Shown here: positions 24,291 through 39,336 of the stretch, in pieces
Numbering within the stretch: position 1 is the stretch's first letter
Layout: each line of letters starts with the position of its first letter
Source: Natrinema ejinorense
Lineage (GTDB): Archaea; Halobacteriota; Halobacteria; Halobacteriales; Natrialbaceae
Reading direction: 5' to 3'
NCBI RefSeq assembly: GCF_002494345.1
Contig: NZ_NXNI01000001.1
Coordinates: 3,906,001-3,970,000 of the forward strand
Length of the DNA stretch: 64,000 bases
The notes under the pieces: model-generated
Seen by the model: the letters and a program-made list of their open reading frames with translations, nothing else
Told to the model about the DNA's origin: nothing
Database searches by the model: none
Program-made: the position numbers and the translations under genes

Positions 24291-25082
24291 ATGAAAATTC
24301 TCGTTACGGTCAAAGAGGTGGCGACCGTCGAAGACGAGTTCGAGATCGACGGAACCGAGATCGCGGATCAGTATCTCGGTGCCGATTTGAACGAGTGGGA
24401 CGATTACGCGATCGAAGAGGCCGTCCAGCTCCAGGAAGGCGGCATCGCCGACGAGGTCGTCGCGGTCACCATCGGTCCGGAAGACTGTGAACAGACCATC
24501 CGTCAGGCCCTCGCGAAGGGTGCCGACCGCGCCGTCCGCGTCTGGGACGACGCGCTGGAGGACGTCGACCTCCTCGACGTCAACGCCAAGACGGAGATCC
24601 TCAGCGCCGTTATCGAGGAGGAAGACCCCGACCTCGTGCTCTCGGGCGTGCAGGCCGGCGACGACAGCTTCGCCGCGACCGGCGTCTCCGTCGCGGAGAA
24701 CATCGGCTTCCAGTGGGGAGCCGTCGTCAACCACCTCGAGCACGACCTCGAGGACGGCATCGCGTCCGTGCGACGCGAACTCGAGGGCGGCGTCGAGGAG
24801 CTGACGAACATCGATCTTCCCGCCGTATTGACGATCCAGACGGGGATCAACGAGCCCCGCTACGCCAGCCTCCGTGGCATCCGGCAGGCACAGCAGAAAC
24901 CGATGGACGTCCAGACGCTGGCCGACATCGGCGTCGACGAGAGCACCATCGAAACCGAACTCGAGCTGACGGACATGTACGAGCCCGAAAGTGAAAGCGA
25001 CGCGACGTTCTGGGAGGGCAGCGCCGAGGAGACGGCCTCGGAGCTGGGTGAACTGCTCCGTGACAAGGGGGTGGCACAATGA
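24291..25082 (+). CDS. etfB: electron transfer flavoprotein beta subunit
   Basis: A 263-residue ETF beta (FixA-type) subunit, which with EtfA carries FAD/AMP and passes electrons from acyl-CoA and other dehydrogenases to an ETF:quinone oxidoreductase. Visible features: KILVTVKEVATVEDEFEID at the start, SGVQAGDDSFAATGVSVAEN, and the ETF-beta signature near LPAVLTIQTGINEPRYASLR. The C-terminus carries an acidic extension (DMYEPESESDATFWEG). Its stop overlaps etfA's start by 4 bases (ATGA). Divergent from the TRAM gene. Confidence 0.95.
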   Translation: MKILVTVKEVATVEDEFEIDGTEIADQYLGADLNEWDDYAIEEAVQLQEGGIADEVVAVTIGPEDCEQTIRQALAKGADRAVRVWDDALEDVDLLDVNAKTEILSAVIEEEDPDLVLSGVQAGDDSFAATGVSVAENIGFQWGAVVNHLEHDLEDGIASVRRELEGGVEELTNIDLPAVLTIQTGINEPRYASLRGIRQAQQKPMDVQTLADIGVDESTIETELELTDMYEPESESDATFWEGSAEETASELGELLRDKGVAQ

Positions 25083-26035
25083 CGGACGTCCTCGCAGTCG
25101 CGGACCACCGACGTGGCGAACTGCGCGACGTCAGCTACGAGATCATCACCGCCGGTCGCCAGCTCGCCGACGAAACCGGCGGCGACCTCCACCTCGCCGT
25201 TATCAGCGGCACCGTCGACGACTTCGCCGACAAACTCAACCGCGAGGGCGTCGACGCGATCCACACCGTCTCCCACGGCGAGGAGTTCAACCACGATGTC
25301 TACACGCAGGCGATCACGCAGCTCTACGACGAGCTCGCCCCGCAGTACGTGCTGACGCCCAACAGCGTCAACGGGCTCGACTACGCGCCCGCGATCGCCA
25401 ATCAACTCGATCTCCCGGTCGTCACCGACACGATCGGCCTCGACAACGACGGCGAGACGCTCGTCGCGACCCGCGAGATGTACGGTGGCAAGGTCGAGAC
25501 GACGAACGAACTCGAGGGCGACGCCGTCGTCACCATCCGCGGTGCCGAGTGGCCCGCCGCTGAGGGAACCGGCGACGCCGCGATCGAGGCCTTCGACGCG
25601 GACATCGACGAAGACGCGATCGGGTCGACTGTCAACGGCTTCGAAGAAGTCGGCGGCGGCGACGTCGACATCAGCGAGGCCGACCTGCTGGTCTCGGTCG
25701 GCCGCGGGATCGAAGAAGAGGAGAACCTCGATCTGATCCGCGACCTTGCGGACACGCTCGGCGCGACACTGTCCTCGTCCCGTCCGATCGTCGACAACGG
25801 CTGGCTGCCCAAGAACCGGCAGGTCGGCCAGTCCGGAAAGGTCGTCACGCCCGACGTCTACATCGCTATCGGGATCTCCGGTGCAGTACAACACGTCGCC
25901 GGGATGAAAGGCTCCGATACGATCGTCGCGATCAACACGGACCCCAACGCGCCGATCATGGACATCGCCGACTACGCGATCGTCGACGACCTCTTCGACG
26001 TCGTGCCGGAACTCATCGAGGAGTTCGACGAATAA
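25079..26035 (+). CDS. etfA: electron transfer flavoprotein alpha subunit
   Basis: A 318-residue ETF alpha (FixB-type) subunit. The N-terminal domain starts VLAVADHRRGELRDVSYEII; the C-terminal FAD-binding domain has LLVSVGRGI, SSSRPIVDNGWLPKNRQVGQ, SGKVVTPDVYIAIGISGA, VQHVAGM and VAINTDPNAPIMDIADYAIV in the order expected. It completes the heterodimer encoded with etfB. The terminal coding sequence (GTCGTGCCGG...TTCGACGAA) is partly duplicated about 113 bases downstream, beyond a palindromic T5/A5 module. Confidence 0.95.
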   Translation: MTDVLAVADHRRGELRDVSYEIITAGRQLADETGGDLHLAVISGTVDDFADKLNREGVDAIHTVSHGEEFNHDVYTQAITQLYDELAPQYVLTPNSVNGLDYAPAIANQLDLPVVTDTIGLDNDGETLVATREMYGGKVETTNELEGDAVVTIRGAEWPAAEGTGDAAIEAFDADIDEDAIGSTVNGFEEVGGGDVDISEADLLVSVGRGIEEEENLDLIRDLADTLGATLSSSRPIVDNGWLPKNRQVGQSGKVVTPDVYIAIGISGAVQHVAGMKGSDTIVAINTDPNAPIMDIADYAIVDDLFDVVPELIEEFDE

Positions 26036-26143
26036 GCGGTTTTTCGGTCCAAATTTTTGCGCGAGCGGTCGCGAACTGAGCGAGCGACTCGAGCGGAAAA
26101 AGGTGGTCGCACGTCGTGTCGGACCGCATCGAGGAGTTCGACG
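26000..26143. repeat. duplicated etfA 3' end flanking a palindromic T5/A5 module
   Basis: The last 31 coding bases of etfA (26000-26030) recur at 26113-26143 with about four mismatches. Between them lies a module: GCGGTTTTTC, an AAATTTTTGCGCG segment, a GC-rich imperfect palindrome built on GAGCGG and GCGAGCG, then GAGCGGAAAAAGGTGG. The T-runs immediately after the stop codon would act as a terminator. The same arrangement occurs after the radical SAM gene at 35400-35698. Confidence 0.65.
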
Positions 26144-34311: not shown

Positions 34312-34433
34312 CGGCTGTTCTCCCTTCCATCCCCATCGTATAATAACATGTGGCTAGAAACGAGGCGTCGACACGCTCCAGTCCACTGCAGTTTCGCACG
34401 GCTTTTGAGGCTCGGGTGGCTACGTTCCGTCGA

Positions 34434-35429
34434 ATGATCTCGAAGGGCTGTGAGCAGTGTGCGAAAGGTGGCAAGATGGTGCTGTTCGTCTATGGCTACT
34501 GCGACCAGCGCGACTGCTTTTACTGCCCGCTCGGGGAGAACCGCAAGAACGTCACCGACGTCTACGCTAACGAGCGACTCGTCGAAGCGGACGAGGACGT
34601 GCTCACCGAGGCCCACCGAATGGACGCGCTGGGCACGTCGATCACCGGCGGCGAGCCCCAGGAGGCGCTCGGCCGGACCTGTCACTACCTCGAGTTGCTC
34701 AAAGACGAGTTCGGCGAGGATCACCACACCCACCTCTATACCGGTATCACCGGCGGCCGCGAGAACATGCGGCGACTCTCCGAGGCCGGCTTGGACGAGA
34801 TTCGGTTCCATCCGCCGTACGAACAGTGGGGGGACCTCCACGGGACCGAGTGGGAGGAGATCCTCTACATCGCCCGCGAAGAAGGGCTCACCCCCGCGTT
34901 CGAGATTCCAGGCATCCGCCCCGAGACGGAGTTCCTCGAACTCATCGACGAGGGCGCAGCCGAGTTCTGTAACGTCAACGAGTTCGAGATGAGCGACGGG
35001 AACTACCGACGGATGCAAGAACAAGGGTTCGAACTCAAGGAAGACCACATGAGCGCCGTCGACGGCTCCCGCGAAGAGATCCTCGAGGTGATGGGCGACC
35101 ACGAGAAGGTCTACTTCTGTACGTCCGTATTCAAGGACGCTGCCCAGCATCGTCGCCGCCTCAAACGCATGGCCCGCAACATCCGCCGCGAGTTCGACGA
35201 CGTCACCGACGACGGCACGCTCGTCTACGGCAAGACCCACGCCGACCCCGCGGAGTTCGAAGCCCTGGGCGTCCCCGAGGAGTTCTACACCGTCAAACCC
35301 GACCACGTCGAGGTCGCCTGGTGGCTCTTAGAGGAGATGATCGAGGACGGCGACCTCGACGACGGCGAAATCGTCGAGCAGTATCCGACCTACGACGGAC
35401 AGGTCGTCGAGCGGACGCCGTTAGCGTGA
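34434..35429 (+). CDS. radical SAM protein with CX4CX2C cluster motif
   Basis: A 331-residue radical SAM enzyme. The ATG at 34434 (MISKGCEQCAKGG) is used; the frame upstream is non-coding. The cluster motif is YGYCDQRDCFYCPLGENR: C23-x4-C28-x2-C31, one residue longer in the first gap than canonical CX3CX2C. GTSITGGEPQEAL matches the SAM-binding GGE motif. A further C6/C9 pair sits at the N-terminus. Archaeal members of this group are conserved but of unknown reaction. The C-terminal coding end (QVVERTPLA) is repeated twice downstream in non-coding DNA. Confidence 0.88.
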   Translation: MISKGCEQCAKGGKMVLFVYGYCDQRDCFYCPLGENRKNVTDVYANERLVEADEDVLTEAHRMDALGTSITGGEPQEALGRTCHYLELLKDEFGEDHHTHLYTGITGGRENMRRLSEAGLDEIRFHPPYEQWGDLHGTEWEEILYIAREEGLTPAFEIPGIRPETEFLELIDEGAAEFCNVNEFEMSDGNYRRMQEQGFELKEDHMSAVDGSREEILEVMGDHEKVYFCTSVFKDAAQHRRRLKRMARNIRREFDDVTDDGTLVYGKTHADPAEFEALGVPEEFYTVKPDHVEVAWWLLEEMIEDGDLDDGEIVEQYPTYDGQVVERTPLA

Positions 35430-35698
35430 GTACCGCGAGCGAGCGAAGCGAGTGAGCGGTTTTTTGGTGGAGATTTTTCGAGGAGGGTGAACGCAGTGAA
35501 CCCGACGAGAAAAAGGTCCACGTGGCAGGTCGTCGAGCGGACGCCGCTGGCATAAAGACCGCGAGCGAACGCGGTGAGCGAGCGGCTTTTTGATGGTGAT
35601 TTTTGGAGGTGGGTGAGCGAAGCGAACCCGACGAGAAAAAAGGTCCACGTGGCAGGTCGTCGAGCGGACGCCGCTAGCGGAGGACCGCGAGCGAACTG
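35400..35698. repeat. tandem array: two 126-127 base units plus partial third, carrying the radical SAM gene's 3' end
   Basis: Unit 1 35400-35525, unit 2 35526-35652, partial unit 3 35653-35698. Each unit begins with the coding end of the radical SAM gene (CAGGTCGTCGAGCGGACGCC, encoding QVVERTPLA), then a palindromic GCGAGCGA...GTGAGCGG segment, a T5-6 run, a second T5 run, an AACCCGACGAG segment, AAAAA and GGTCCACGTGG. Only the first copy is in the gene. Units differ at several positions, so the array is not recent. The T-runs make it a likely multi-hit terminator. Confidence 0.8.
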
Positions 35699-35858
35699 GG
35701 ATTCGCATCGATTGTGCACGCTATAACGATCGTCCCACAGCGTGCAACCCCCCGAATATGGCCGTCTCGAGACTATCGTGTCCCGTTCATCGCCGAGCGA
35801 GTCGGTGCCACTTATCCGGGTTGTAATAATGGCGGGTGTCCCGAAATGGGCGGCTACG

Positions 35859-36563
35859 ATGAAATCCCGAACCATAGCAGTCGTCGCGGTTGCACTGCTC
35901 GTCGCCCTCTCCGGGTGCAGTGCTCTCGGTGGATCGCAGGCGGATGACCAAGCGACCGAGTCCGATTCGGAGCCATTGAACGAAACCCAGTCGGAATCGA
36001 ACGGTTCCGACGACACAGAAACCGACACTAGCGACGACATCGAATCGAACGGAACTGCGAACGACACGGACGACGGAGACGACACTGCTGATGCGGAGTG
36101 GTCCCCGCCCGAGGAACCGAACCGTCCGATAGAAGACGAACGCGAGGATCGAATCGAATCCGTCGAGTTCGTCGACAAAGAACCCGTAGCGAGTGGTGAC
36201 GGCTACTCGAACTTCAACCTCGAGGTCGTTGCCAACACCAGCATGGAGGACGTCGATCCGCCGGAACACGGTGACGTGGAGGGTGAACCGTACTTCTTCG
36301 TCAAGATCAACGAGGACGAGCAGAAGCTACTCGAGCGAACGGATGAGGTTCGCATGGAAGAGAACGGGACGTTCCACATCGACGTTCGGCCGGCCGGTAT
36401 CGAAGAGTTCGGTGCGGGCTCGTTGACCGTCGAGGTTTTCCTGATGGACGAGGACAAAGACTGGGACGACATCTACGACTCCGTCGGCAGGGACATCCAG
36501 TACAACCCGGACGCGGACGACTCGTCCAGCACCGAGGACGGGTCGGAGACCAGCGAGAACTGA
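35859..36563 (+). CDS. secreted acidic lipoprotein, hypothetical
   Basis: About 234 residues. The start at 35859 gives MKSRTIAVVAVALLVALSGC, a Sec-type lipoprotein signal with lipobox LSGC at residues 17-20; an ATG 30 bases upstream is possible. Residues about 28-80 are a low-complexity Asp/Glu/Ser/Thr/Asn linker, typical of haloarchaeal surface proteins. The folded part (about 90-215) looks like an Ig or FxLYD-like beta domain (NFNLEVVANTSMEDVDPPEH, GTFHIDVRPAGIEEFGAG). No family assigned. The upstream 429 bases hold the repeat array and promoter only. Confidence 0.75.
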   Translation: MKSRTIAVVAVALLVALSGCSALGGSQADDQATESDSEPLNETQSESNGSDDTETDTSDDIESNGTANDTDDGDDTADAEWSPPEEPNRPIEDEREDRIESVEFVDKEPVASGDGYSNFNLEVVANTSMEDVDPPEHGDVEGEPYFFVKINEDEQKLLERTDEVRMEENGTFHIDVRPAGIEEFGAGSLTVEVFLMDEDKDWDDIYDSVGRDIQYNPDADDSSSTEDGSETSEN

Positions 36564-36599: not shown

Positions 36600-37937
36600 T
36601 CACTCCACCTCGGTCGGATCGACGCCCGGCAGCGTGATGAGGTTTTCCCGGCCGATCCGGAGCTTCTCGATCTCGTCGTCGTCGTCCATCTTCGAGAGGA
36701 GTTGTGAGACCTTGGCGTTCGACCAGCCGGTCTCCGTGACGATGGACGCCTGTTTCATCCGACCGCCGTTTCGTTTGAGCAATCGAAGGACGCGTTCCTC
36801 GTCGCTTAACAGTTCGGGATCGATTTCGTCGTCAACCGGTTCCTCGAACTCGAGGTGGGTGCCCGATCCGCCGTCGGTATCGGCGGCTGCGGGCGAGTCG
36901 ACCGCCGCGTTGGCGACCGGTTCGGCGCCCCCATCGCCGTGGGTCGTGGTCCCATCGGAACCGTTCCCGTCACGTTCGCGGGGATCGAGTCGCTTCAACA
37001 GCCCGAGTGGCCCGGTGGTTGCGAGCGACGCCAGCGGATCGGTCGCCCCCTCCCGGTCGTCGTCGGTCTTTCGCCTCGCGAGGACGTAGCCGCCAGCCCC
37101 GATGAGGGCGACGACTCCGAGCAGCGCAGCGATCAGCACGGTCGTATTCGAGTTCGGCGAATTCGGGCCAGCTCCCTGAAGGAGCGTCATCTCGAGCCCG
37201 TCCTCCTCGAAGTGATAGGGCCCGTTCCAGACGAGCGAGCCGTTTTCGGTCCCTGTCGGCGCGTCGACGAAGCCGTAGTTCTCCGGGGGTTCGATGACGA
37301 GCCGTTGCCAGCTCGCTAACGACTCGAACAGGAGTCCCTCGGTCGTCTGGAAGCTGTCGCCGACGCGAATCCGATCCCCGTCGACGGTTCCGAAATTCGT
37401 CCAGGTGAACGAATACGAAAGGATACCGACCCGGACATCGTCGCCGTTTGTGGCCGGTTCGTCGTCGGTATCGAGGGGTTCGATTCGTGCCCCGTCCCAG
37501 CCGGCGTTCTCGATGTCCATCTCGCGGCTGTTCGACTCGGCGACGCGGCTCGCGTACCGGTCGAACACTCGCGGATCGTACTGTGGGTCTCGCTGGCCCG
37601 CCATGACCGCGTCGGCGTAGTCGTGGAAGGTTTCGGCCTCGGAGTCGTCGGTCACGAGGAACCGGCTTTCGATATACCATTCGGCATCGCCATCGTCGGT
37701 GATTCGAACCCGGATCACCTGCCGCGTCTCGGGGCTCTCGAGGGGCGACGAGGACGATTGGAGGGCCGATACCGACTCTGGCTGCTCGAGGGCTAAGGCT
37801 GGGAAGGGAGACGTCGGCGGGGACCGCTCACCAGTCGTCGACGCAGGCGCCGACGGTGTGGCGGCGGCCACTGCCCCCAGACCGGACGTAGCGAGGAGGA
37901 CTGTGAGGGCGAGTGCGGCGGCGGTGGACATCCGCAT
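36600..37937 (-). CDS. membrane-anchored winged-helix regulator with extracellular domain
   Basis: A 445-residue protein: signal/first helix at residues 1-25 (MRMSTAAALALTVLLATSG), an extracellular beta-rich domain (about 60-260; VIRVRITDDGDAEWYIESRF, FDRYASRVAESN), a membrane helix near residues 272-295 (TVLIAALLGVVALIGAGGYV), an acidic linker, and a C-terminal winged-helix (about 385-440; LSDEERVLRLLKRNGGRMKQ, then SIVTETGWSNAKVSQLLSKM). Haloarchaea have a family with this layout (DUF7345/DUF7343 type as I recall). It probably senses surface conditions and binds DNA while in the membrane. Divergent from the exported protein at 38107. Confidence 0.8.
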   Translation of the reverse strand: MRMSTAAALALTVLLATSGLGAVAAATPSAPASTTGERSPPTSPFPALALEQPESVSALQSSSSPLESPETRQVIRVRITDDGDAEWYIESRFLVTDDSEAETFHDYADAVMAGQRDPQYDPRVFDRYASRVAESNSREMDIENAGWDGARIEPLDTDDEPATNGDDVRVGILSYSFTWTNFGTVDGDRIRVGDSFQTTEGLLFESLASWQRLVIEPPENYGFVDAPTGTENGSLVWNGPYHFEEDGLEMTLLQGAGPNSPNSNTTVLIAALLGVVALIGAGGYVLARRKTDDDREGATDPLASLATTGPLGLLKRLDPRERDGNGSDGTTTHGDGGAEPVANAAVDSPAAADTDGGSGTHLEFEEPVDDEIDPELLSDEERVLRLLKRNGGRMKQASIVTETGWSNAKVSQLLSKMDDDDEIEKLRIGRENLITLPGVDPTEVE

Positions 37938-38106
37938 GTGTACCAATTGGGTGGTTTCCACGGGGAAAAAACACTTTCCATCGATAATAAACTCCTTCTG
38001 ACGCGGCTGAACGGCGTAATACGTCGTAACCGGGTCTGTAACGGGCGTCTCCGTGCCTGACCGATAGACGACCAGTTTTTGTATCAGGAGGCCATACGGT
38101 GTGGCG

Positions 38107-39336
38107 ATGAACAACGCGACGCCTGCCCTCCTCGCGTTCCTCCTCGTCCTCTCGCTGCCTGCGATGACCGTCGTCGCAGCGGCCCCTAGCGGCGAGCGCC
38201 TCGACGGATCGGCGGCGACCCTCCAGCAGGAACTCCCGGATCGAACGGCCCCGGTCGAGGCCGAGAACACGACCAACCGTCTCCCCTTGACCGGTGACGT
38301 CAGAAGCGAGTACACCGACTACGGGAGCGGCCTCGGGCTGGTTTTCGCGAATGCCGACGACGAACTCAGGCTCGACTACGAGCAGTACACGCTCGTCGAC
38401 GACGAGTTCGACGATGCAACCACTGAGCAGCAAGCAGCGATGGTCCAGCAGGCCTACGAGCGTATCAACGAACGGGCCGACGAACTCGAGCAACGCGAGC
38501 GCGAGGCGGTACGAGCATACGCAGCCGGCGAGCAATCGACGAACGAACTCCTCCAGACGTTGCTGCGAAACCACAAGGAGGCGGCGATGCTGGCCGATAC
38601 CCTTCGGGAACTCGAGGGACGAGCAAACCAGGTCTCCGGGTATTCGCTGCCGGCTGACTACTCCGACTACAAGACCCTGGAGTACCATCGAACGCCGCTC
38701 CGAGAGAACCTCGAAGCACTCACCGATCGGCCGACACGCGGGAGCGGACTCGACGTGACCGTCTCGGCTTCACAGACGGGGTACAGCCTCGCGATGGTAG
38801 ACGGGGACCGATACCTCGTCGAAACGGCCAGATTCGATAATCGCGACCAAACTGGCTCGAACCAGCTCGACCACAGCGACGCGTACAATCACGCGGAGGA
38901 CCTCTACCCATGGGCCTCCAGCGACGACGGGCCCCACTTCCAGGAAAACAGTCCTGATCACTACTGGGCGGAGCCGAAGCTTGATCAGGGCCGGCTCGAT
39001 TTCTACTTCAATACCCAGACCGGAAACGTCTATCGCGAGACACAGGAACTGACCACACAATCGCTCCCCGTAACGGACGAGACGACGCGGTCCAATGACG
39101 GGCTCGAGCTGTCGATCAACGAGACGCCGCCGGCGGAGAACGTTAACAGTCCGATCGAGGTGACGGTGACCGACCAGGCGACCGGCGAACCCGAGCAGGC
39201 AACCATCATCATTGACGGGATCGAAATCGGGAAAACCGGCGAGGACGGGTCGCTGTGGATCGTTCCAACCCTCGGCCAATCAGAGCTGACGGCACGGACT
39301 GCAAACGGGACCGTCAACGCGACGATCACGTCCTAA
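38107..39336 (+). CDS. exported coiled-coil protein, hypothetical
   Basis: About 409 residues. N-terminal Sec signal (ATPALLAFLLVLSLPAMTVVAAAP) followed by an acidic, helical domain (about residues 95-210) with coiled-coil heptads (ERINERADELEQREREAVRA), then beta-rich C-terminal domain ending in a PEGA/Ig-like strand set (PIEVTVTDQATGEPEQATII). Either GTG 38101 or ATG 38107 can start it. It resembles haloarchaeal DUF7096-type proteins that accompany the membrane-anchored winged-helix family; the divergent neighbour at 36600-37937 is such a protein, so the two may act together. Confidence 0.72.
   Translation: MNNATPALLAFLLVLSLPAMTVVAAAPSGERLDGSAATLQQELPDRTAPVEAENTTNRLPLTGDVRSEYTDYGSGLGLVFANADDELRLDYEQYTLVDDEFDDATTEQQAAMVQQAYERINERADELEQREREAVRAYAAGEQSTNELLQTLLRNHKEAAMLADTLRELEGRANQVSGYSLPADYSDYKTLEYHRTPLRENLEALTDRPTRGSGLDVTVSASQTGYSLAMVDGDRYLVETARFDNRDQTGSNQLDHSDAYNHAEDLYPWASSDDGPHFQENSPDHYWAEPKLDQGRLDFYFNTQTGNVYRETQELTTQSLPVTDETTRSNDGLELSINETPPAENVNSPIEVTVTDQATGEPEQATIIIDGIEIGKTGEDGSLWIVPTLGQSELTARTANGTVNATITS

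Follow-up and report, generated by a model that had tools for sequence, protein, structure and literature searches.

A tandem array of gene 3' ends downstream of a radical SAM gene of Natrinema ejinorense and its possible relationship to a dispersed haloarchaeal gene-end cassette

The array behind the radical SAM gene

The DNA analyzed in the present study is a stretch of 64,000 nucleotides of the genome of Natrinema ejinorense (the window). A gene of the radical SAM superfamily (34350..35429, plus strand; 359 amino acids), recognized from its ORF, Pfam and relatives, ends with QVVERTPLA and TGA, and its last 27 nucleotides together with the stop codon open a tandem array. The protein scored 27.9 bits against Pfam Radical_SAM, just under the cut-off of 29.5, and none of the NCBIfam models matched it. 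Relatives were detected in 53 of the 61 genomes searched, most of them with 81–96% identity.

TRF placed the array at 35400–35696 with a period of 126, 2.3 copies and 85% matches. Its score of 436 was the best of five arrays in the window, the rest of which scored 62 or less. The units start at 35400, 35526 and 35653, spaced by 126 and 127 bases, and the third ends at approximately 35696. An earlier note on this DNA had described two full units of 126 and 127 bases and a partial third, and TRF, a repeat search and direct reading all agreed with this description. Units 1 and 2 are 83% identical over 115 nucleotides. Each unit opens with the gene end QVVERTPLA, and ORF and repeat comparisons bore out that only that of unit 1 is coding; the two further segments match at 24–26 of 27 nucleotides. 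The GAGCGA palindrome, the T6 and T5 runs, the A5 and A6 runs and GGTCCACGTGG were also present as noted.

We refer to the proximal gene 3' end and its stop codon as A, to the palindromic element as E and to the gene-end copy distal to E as A'. A unit consists of the gene 3' end and stop codon, a hairpin with a T-run, E and then the gene 3' end again, all on the plus strand. A (35400..35429) is the functional end, with 27 coding nucleotides and TGA. It is followed by hairpin 1 (CCGC...GCGG) and T6 (35433..35465, the T6 at 35460), which is terminator-like and folds at −12.8 kcal/mol (z −1.76). E copy 1 (35466..35525) reads GGTGGAGATTTTT...GAAAAAGGTCC and then ACGTGG. Folding and arm covariation identify it as an imperfect palindrome with T5 on each strand (T5 at 35474), and none of 200 shuffles folded as well (z −4.87). 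The second gene-end copy, A' (35526..35555), was recognized from the sequence, the repeats and a family pattern search; it is non-coding and has its own TAA. The remainder of unit 2 (35556..35652) holds a segment similar to hairpin 1, T5 (35587–35591), a degenerate E copy 2 (35592–35646) and ACGTGG. The third and most distal gene-end copy, with a truncated start of hairpin 1 (35653..35696), is followed by native downstream sequence. An Rfam scan of the region returned nothing but a chance viral hairpin, which scored far below its threshold and lay outside the array on the opposite strand.

E and the hairpins are likely to act as a transcription terminator, possibly on both strands, because E folds better than its shuffles, T-runs occur on both of its strands and transcription terminates at T stretches in Haloferax volcanii. 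Intergenic termination in that archaeon is marked mainly by the T stretch; some of the sites have a hairpin upstream, and the secondary termination sites that were mapped number 487, at distances of 11–150 nucleotides (PMC7237163). Judged by sequence, the hairpin followed by a T-run, repeated in the array, fits the tandem terminators proposed in the earlier note.

The same layout, with three gene-end copies at 126-base steps, occurs in another genome of the species (G108). Therefore, an assembly error, which the earlier note had named as what would refute the array, is unlikely. Units 1 and 2 read identical in G108, whereas those of the window have diverged, and thus the units turn over within the species. 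A family-wide pattern search revealed downstream gene-end copies in many genomes of the family; copies also occur at the radical SAM gene of two Halobacterium loci (L100 and L106). Among the matches listed, the copies of this gene end are at most a few hundred bases away from the gene, apart from a few distant matches with one mismatch, whose sequence is different. The flank beyond A' differs between species.

Several other observations were made around this gene. Natrarchaeobius chitinivorans AArcht7 (L073; G097:C24:3635-4279) carries six radical SAM gene ends at 124-nucleotide steps, five of which are exact over the 25-nucleotide pattern. Long runs of further GAGCGA-type palindromes occupy the spacer 3' of the gene at L003 and L009, suggesting that palindromic repeats of other kinds accumulate at this downstream site. 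In the window, the array is followed by a lipobox-like ORF (35742–36563, plus strand) that some relatives have and others lack, and by a convergent gene (36600–38315, minus strand) that matches DUF7345 and DUF7343.

The palindromic element and its occurrence at other genes

A genome search for the module, as the earlier note had suggested, recovered the same layout behind six other genes of this genome, encoding diphthine-ligase-like, PheT, SDR (short-chain dehydrogenase), OTC-like (ornithine carbamoyltransferase), IleS and EtfA proteins (names read from the sequences rather than obtained by a family search). At these six loci, a hairpin and T-run are followed by GGTSSAGATTTTT, a palindromic middle, AAAAAGGTS'S' and the gene's own end, usually with a stop codon. 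The etfA-like gene lies in the window (ORF 25079–26035, plus strand). A repeat scan located its proximal 3' end and stop codon at 25998..26035 and a distal, decaying copy of 33 nucleotides at 26111..26143, at an offset of 113. The genome search and folding placed T5 (26040–26044) and E, reading GGTCCAAATTTTT...GGAAAAAGGTGG, between them (26040..26106). At the etfA-like locus of G108 (L241), the right arm of E and the gene-end copy are missing.

E is an imperfect palindrome of approximately 55–70 bases that reads GGTSSAGATTTTT...AAAAAGGTS'S' with a variable middle, where SS and S'S' denote the two letters that follow GGT on the left and right arms. The two pairs of letters complement each other in 108 of 114 instances, although instances from related species are not independent; the combinations CC/GG, CG/CG, GC/GC and GG/CC are all represented. 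E folds better than its shuffles as RNA (z −2.4 to −4.9) and as DNA (z −2.0 to −4.0), and it carries T5–T6 runs on both strands. We rejected the idea that E arose by perfect fold-back template switching, since identical mismatches between the arms (GA against GG) recur at most loci and in most species.

The association with gene ends was also apparent in an unbiased scan of 464 kb (the window and 20 evenly spaced chromosome stretches) that took in every kind of direct repeat at short range. The repeats with a T...A spacer lay at the ends of four genes, flanking E in each case; the other repeats had no T...A spacer and looked like tRNA or internal repeats. Where a gene-end copy was found, it mostly started 6–8 nucleotides past AAAAAGGT (109 instances at 39 putative genes, from automatic ORF calls), and mismatched pairs of gene ends and downstream regions, used as a control, yielded 5 matches in 310. 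The start inside the gene is nearly fixed across species, at −45 in ileS, mostly −35 in pheT and approximately −48 to −51 in OTC. This near-constancy points to one or few origins for the arrangement of each gene, and it is better explained by a single, ancient event in each gene than by insertions that continue at fresh sites. An exception is the radical SAM gene, with at least three classes of start, mostly −30 but also −49/−51 and −60.

Gene-end copies do not accompany every E. They were found at 12 of 27 loci sampled outside the genus, and E stood without a detectable copy at 25 of 44 sites, those of the CG/CG type especially. One such E lies near 822634 in the genome of the window (G000:C1:822604-822695, L112) and another at G108:C1:563043 (L167). 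Both are of the CG/CG type and lie upstream of an apparent minus-strand gene end.

An exact gapped pattern for E was too strict and missed known copies in the genome itself. The distribution of E was counted by its left-arm pattern with at most one mismatch and with the reversed pattern as the control. Within the genus, 28 of 29 genomes had matches, with 0–14 per genome and none for the control. Among complete genomes of Halobacteria, 88 of 145 had matches, representing 45 of 58 genera, and the reversed-pattern controls were near zero. Three related genomes, G014, G001 and G009 (Natrinema gari, N. pallidum and N. altunense), have 0–1 copies, as opposed to up to 14 elsewhere in the genus, as if the family had been lost or not maintained in these genomes. 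A lost helper could be the reason. The left-arm pattern had 34 matches in the viral collection, none with the right arm, and hence no complete E; since none has the right arm, these matches are probably due to chance. A search of the literature, with partial coverage, did not find GGTCCAGATTTTT or anything relevant on duplicated haloarchaeal gene ends, and within this coverage we found no earlier description of a hairpin element bracketed by gene-end copies.

The native gene end

Some alleles lack E and have a single gene end. At pheT and SDR, G108 is empty in this sense, whereas the genome of the window (G000) has the filled allele. The single end of G108 and the sequence after its stop codon correspond to the distal copy with its flank in G000 rather than to the proximal copy. 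A match to the distal copy was likewise obtained for pheT in G010 versus G027 and for SDR in G011 versus G014 and G001. In these contrasts, the post-stop flank of the empty allele scored 47–60 with the distal flank, 7–26 with the proximal flank and 12 or less with shuffles. Therefore, the proximal end and E sit between the gene body and the native end. However, these empty alleles could equally be explained as deletions by recombination between A and A', since both routes give the same single-copy allele. A test for import tracts at SDR and pheT, in which differences between G000 and G108 were counted per 60 nucleotides, did not reveal a clear tract.

The differences between A and A' are distributed as in coding sequence. 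In 71 instances at 21 genes, with frames from automatic ORF calls and with related species not being independent cases, we counted 43, 29 and 150 differences at codon positions 1, 2 and 3, respectively (150 of 222 at third positions). The third-position fraction was 0.68 (0.59–0.74 by bootstrap over genes), while a neutral duplicate predicts approximately 0.5 or less. Between species, A' differs from A' by 0.174/0.101/0.326 at the three codon positions, compared with 0.113/0.057/0.358 for A and A. The earlier note took the divergence between units as a sign that the array has persisted; this reading is too simple, as differences between A and A' fall mostly at third codon positions and A' behaves in a coding-like manner between species. 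Third-position distances to empty alleles, over these short coding ends, were about equal, at 0.358 for A and 0.336 for A'. The distance of A' was 0.195 to its own A and 0.35 to the A of other species. Since empty alleles match the distal copy and its flank and the differences are biased to third positions, the distal copy appears to be a coding end that was displaced recently and not an old, decaying duplicate. Repeated conversion together with the import of foreign alleles into A only is a weaker alternative for this pattern.

Origin of the cassette and comparison with known systems

We regard the chances as about even that the array is a tandemly expanded form of a dispersed haloarchaeal "gene-end cassette", in which E acts as a terminator and the proximal end with E spreads by recombination. 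The added part would be A and E, inserted ahead of the native end. A donor with the order gene body, A, E and A' would recombine with a recipient, using the gene body as the left homology arm and A' as the right. The exchange would keep the reading frame and push the native end of the recipient downstream as the new A', and thus the gene would stay intact and gain a terminator. Spread between strains and species would occur mainly by homologous recombination, and recombination between A and A' could remove E cleanly. Gene transfer between haloarchaeal lineages is well documented (for example, PMC4500145). At the radical SAM gene, further exchange of units may have led to the 2.3 units of the window and to the two identical units and remnant of the conspecific genome. 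The nearly fixed start within each gene, the E copies that stand without a gene-end copy and the possible origin of the empty alleles by deletion weigh against this reading. The origin by slippage or recombination proposed in the earlier note thus stands in part: unit turnover within the species supports recombination, while one-off slippage does not agree with the dispersal of E at unrelated genes.

A bolder version, which we advance tentatively, is that E is an actively spreading, protein-free selfish "gene-end" element that carries a spare host 3' end and is possibly helped by an enzyme. Each transfer would swap the tail of the recipient harmlessly, displace the native tail and thereby supply the right-hand homology arm for the next transfer.

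A plain tandem duplication, one per gene, running from inside the coding end to the right arm of E and promoted by the hairpin terminator, is a possible but doubtful explanation; conversion would then keep A' similar to A, and A' would otherwise be neutral. Multi-unit arrays do exist (the window, L073 with at least four extra copies at 124-nucleotide steps, and G108 with two identical units), the copy start is nearly fixed for each gene, and A' is nearer to its own A than to that of other species at third positions (0.195 versus 0.35). However, duplication leaves unexplained why the same palindrome forms the unit border at many unrelated genes. Moreover, at 0.68 the third-position share lies above the 0.5 that a neutral A' would give, the distal copies appear to carry more coding-type differences than conversion from A could supply, and the proximal and distal flanks differ in the empty-allele contrasts, with the distal alone being native. 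We consider it unlikely that E is instead a non-autonomous mobile element of transcript 3' ends that makes a long target-site duplication of approximately 25–120 nucleotides, for example through target-primed copying of E RNA. The defined right end (AAAAAGGTSSRTG), the dispersed copies and the near-fixed junction speak for such an element, as do the variable presence of E within species and the reach of the duplication to the T-run in young-looking cases. However, a transposase or reverse transcriptase partner for E is not known, start positions are common to species and recent jumps to new genes were not seen, and the viral collection holds no complete E (34 left-arm and 0 right-arm matches). 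In addition, the length and variability of the duplication are not known from the target duplications of DNA transposons.

Two further explanations appear much less probable. A' may be kept for a function of its own, whereby opposite-strand transcripts through A' would stop at the other T-run of E and yield an antisense RNA to the mRNA 3' end. T5–T6 runs do occur on both strands of E, A' lies directly upstream of the minus-strand run, and A' sequences stay gene-like. Nevertheless, RNA pairing would not produce a codon-position bias and the flank beyond A' varies between species, and we judge this function very improbable. Integrative elements whose attachment sites are gene 3' ends usually leave a duplicated gene end behind. 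However, the repeated sequence is gene-specific while E is common to all, and the radical SAM end is copied at most a few hundred bases away from its gene among the matches listed. That the cassettes are what remains of such elements is scarcely credible. An attachment-site origin was itself rejected at the radical SAM gene, as the family-wide pattern search revealed no large element between gene-end copies among the matches listed.

If the cassette reading is correct, a terminator cassette that can be removed would stand behind many genes of haloarchaea and rewrite the final codons of essential ones, for example ileS and pheT, and the histories of gene ends would differ from those of gene bodies. 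It would also provide a natural system to measure interspecies recombination at defined sites and a common 3' signal for testing haloarchaeal termination on both strands.

The cassette shares features with several known systems. Similar to archaeal intrinsic terminators, which have a T-stretch and sometimes a hairpin, it has a hairpin and then T5–T6 just past the stop codon, and close secondary sites are common in the Haloferax volcanii map (PMC7237163); however, no known terminator is reported to consist of a conserved, dispersed palindrome with a gene-end copy beside it. MITEs and REP/BIME are also short, palindromic, non-coding, dispersed and sometimes tandem, and E has the inverted terminal arms of MITEs (108 of 114 arm pairs). 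In contrast, the repeats that flank E are gene-specific and range from approximately 25 to 120 nucleotides, and no transposase associated with E is known. E is outside the definition of a MITE because it has no short target duplication of constant length.

The nearest known case is that of the mobile ORF elements of fungal mitochondria that replace gene 3' ends, described for atp6 of Allomyces and for atp6, atp9, cox2 and nad3 of Glomus sp. (PMC3630166). In these elements, the insert brings a functional in-frame gene end, and the native end comes to lie on its downstream side (PMC3630166); the empty-allele contrasts likewise place the native copy of the duplicated 3' end downstream of the insert in haloarchaea. 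The native fungal copy matches close relatives, and differences between relatives are largely synonymous (PMC3630166), the latter being a further likeness. In haloarchaea, the distal flank is clearly native, and over the short coding ends A and A' are about equally close to empty alleles. However, the fungal inserts encode a LAGLIDADG or GIY-YIG endonuclease of approximately 400–1000 nucleotides (PMC3630166), whereas the haloarchaeal insert is a non-coding palindrome of approximately 55–150 nucleotides on an archaeal chromosome, too short for a homing endonuclease, and the haloarchaeal gene ends are far less diverged than the fungal mitochondrial ones. If the present interpretation holds, the gene-end cassette would be a protein-free counterpart, in prokaryotes, of the fungal mitochondrial elements that replace gene 3' ends.
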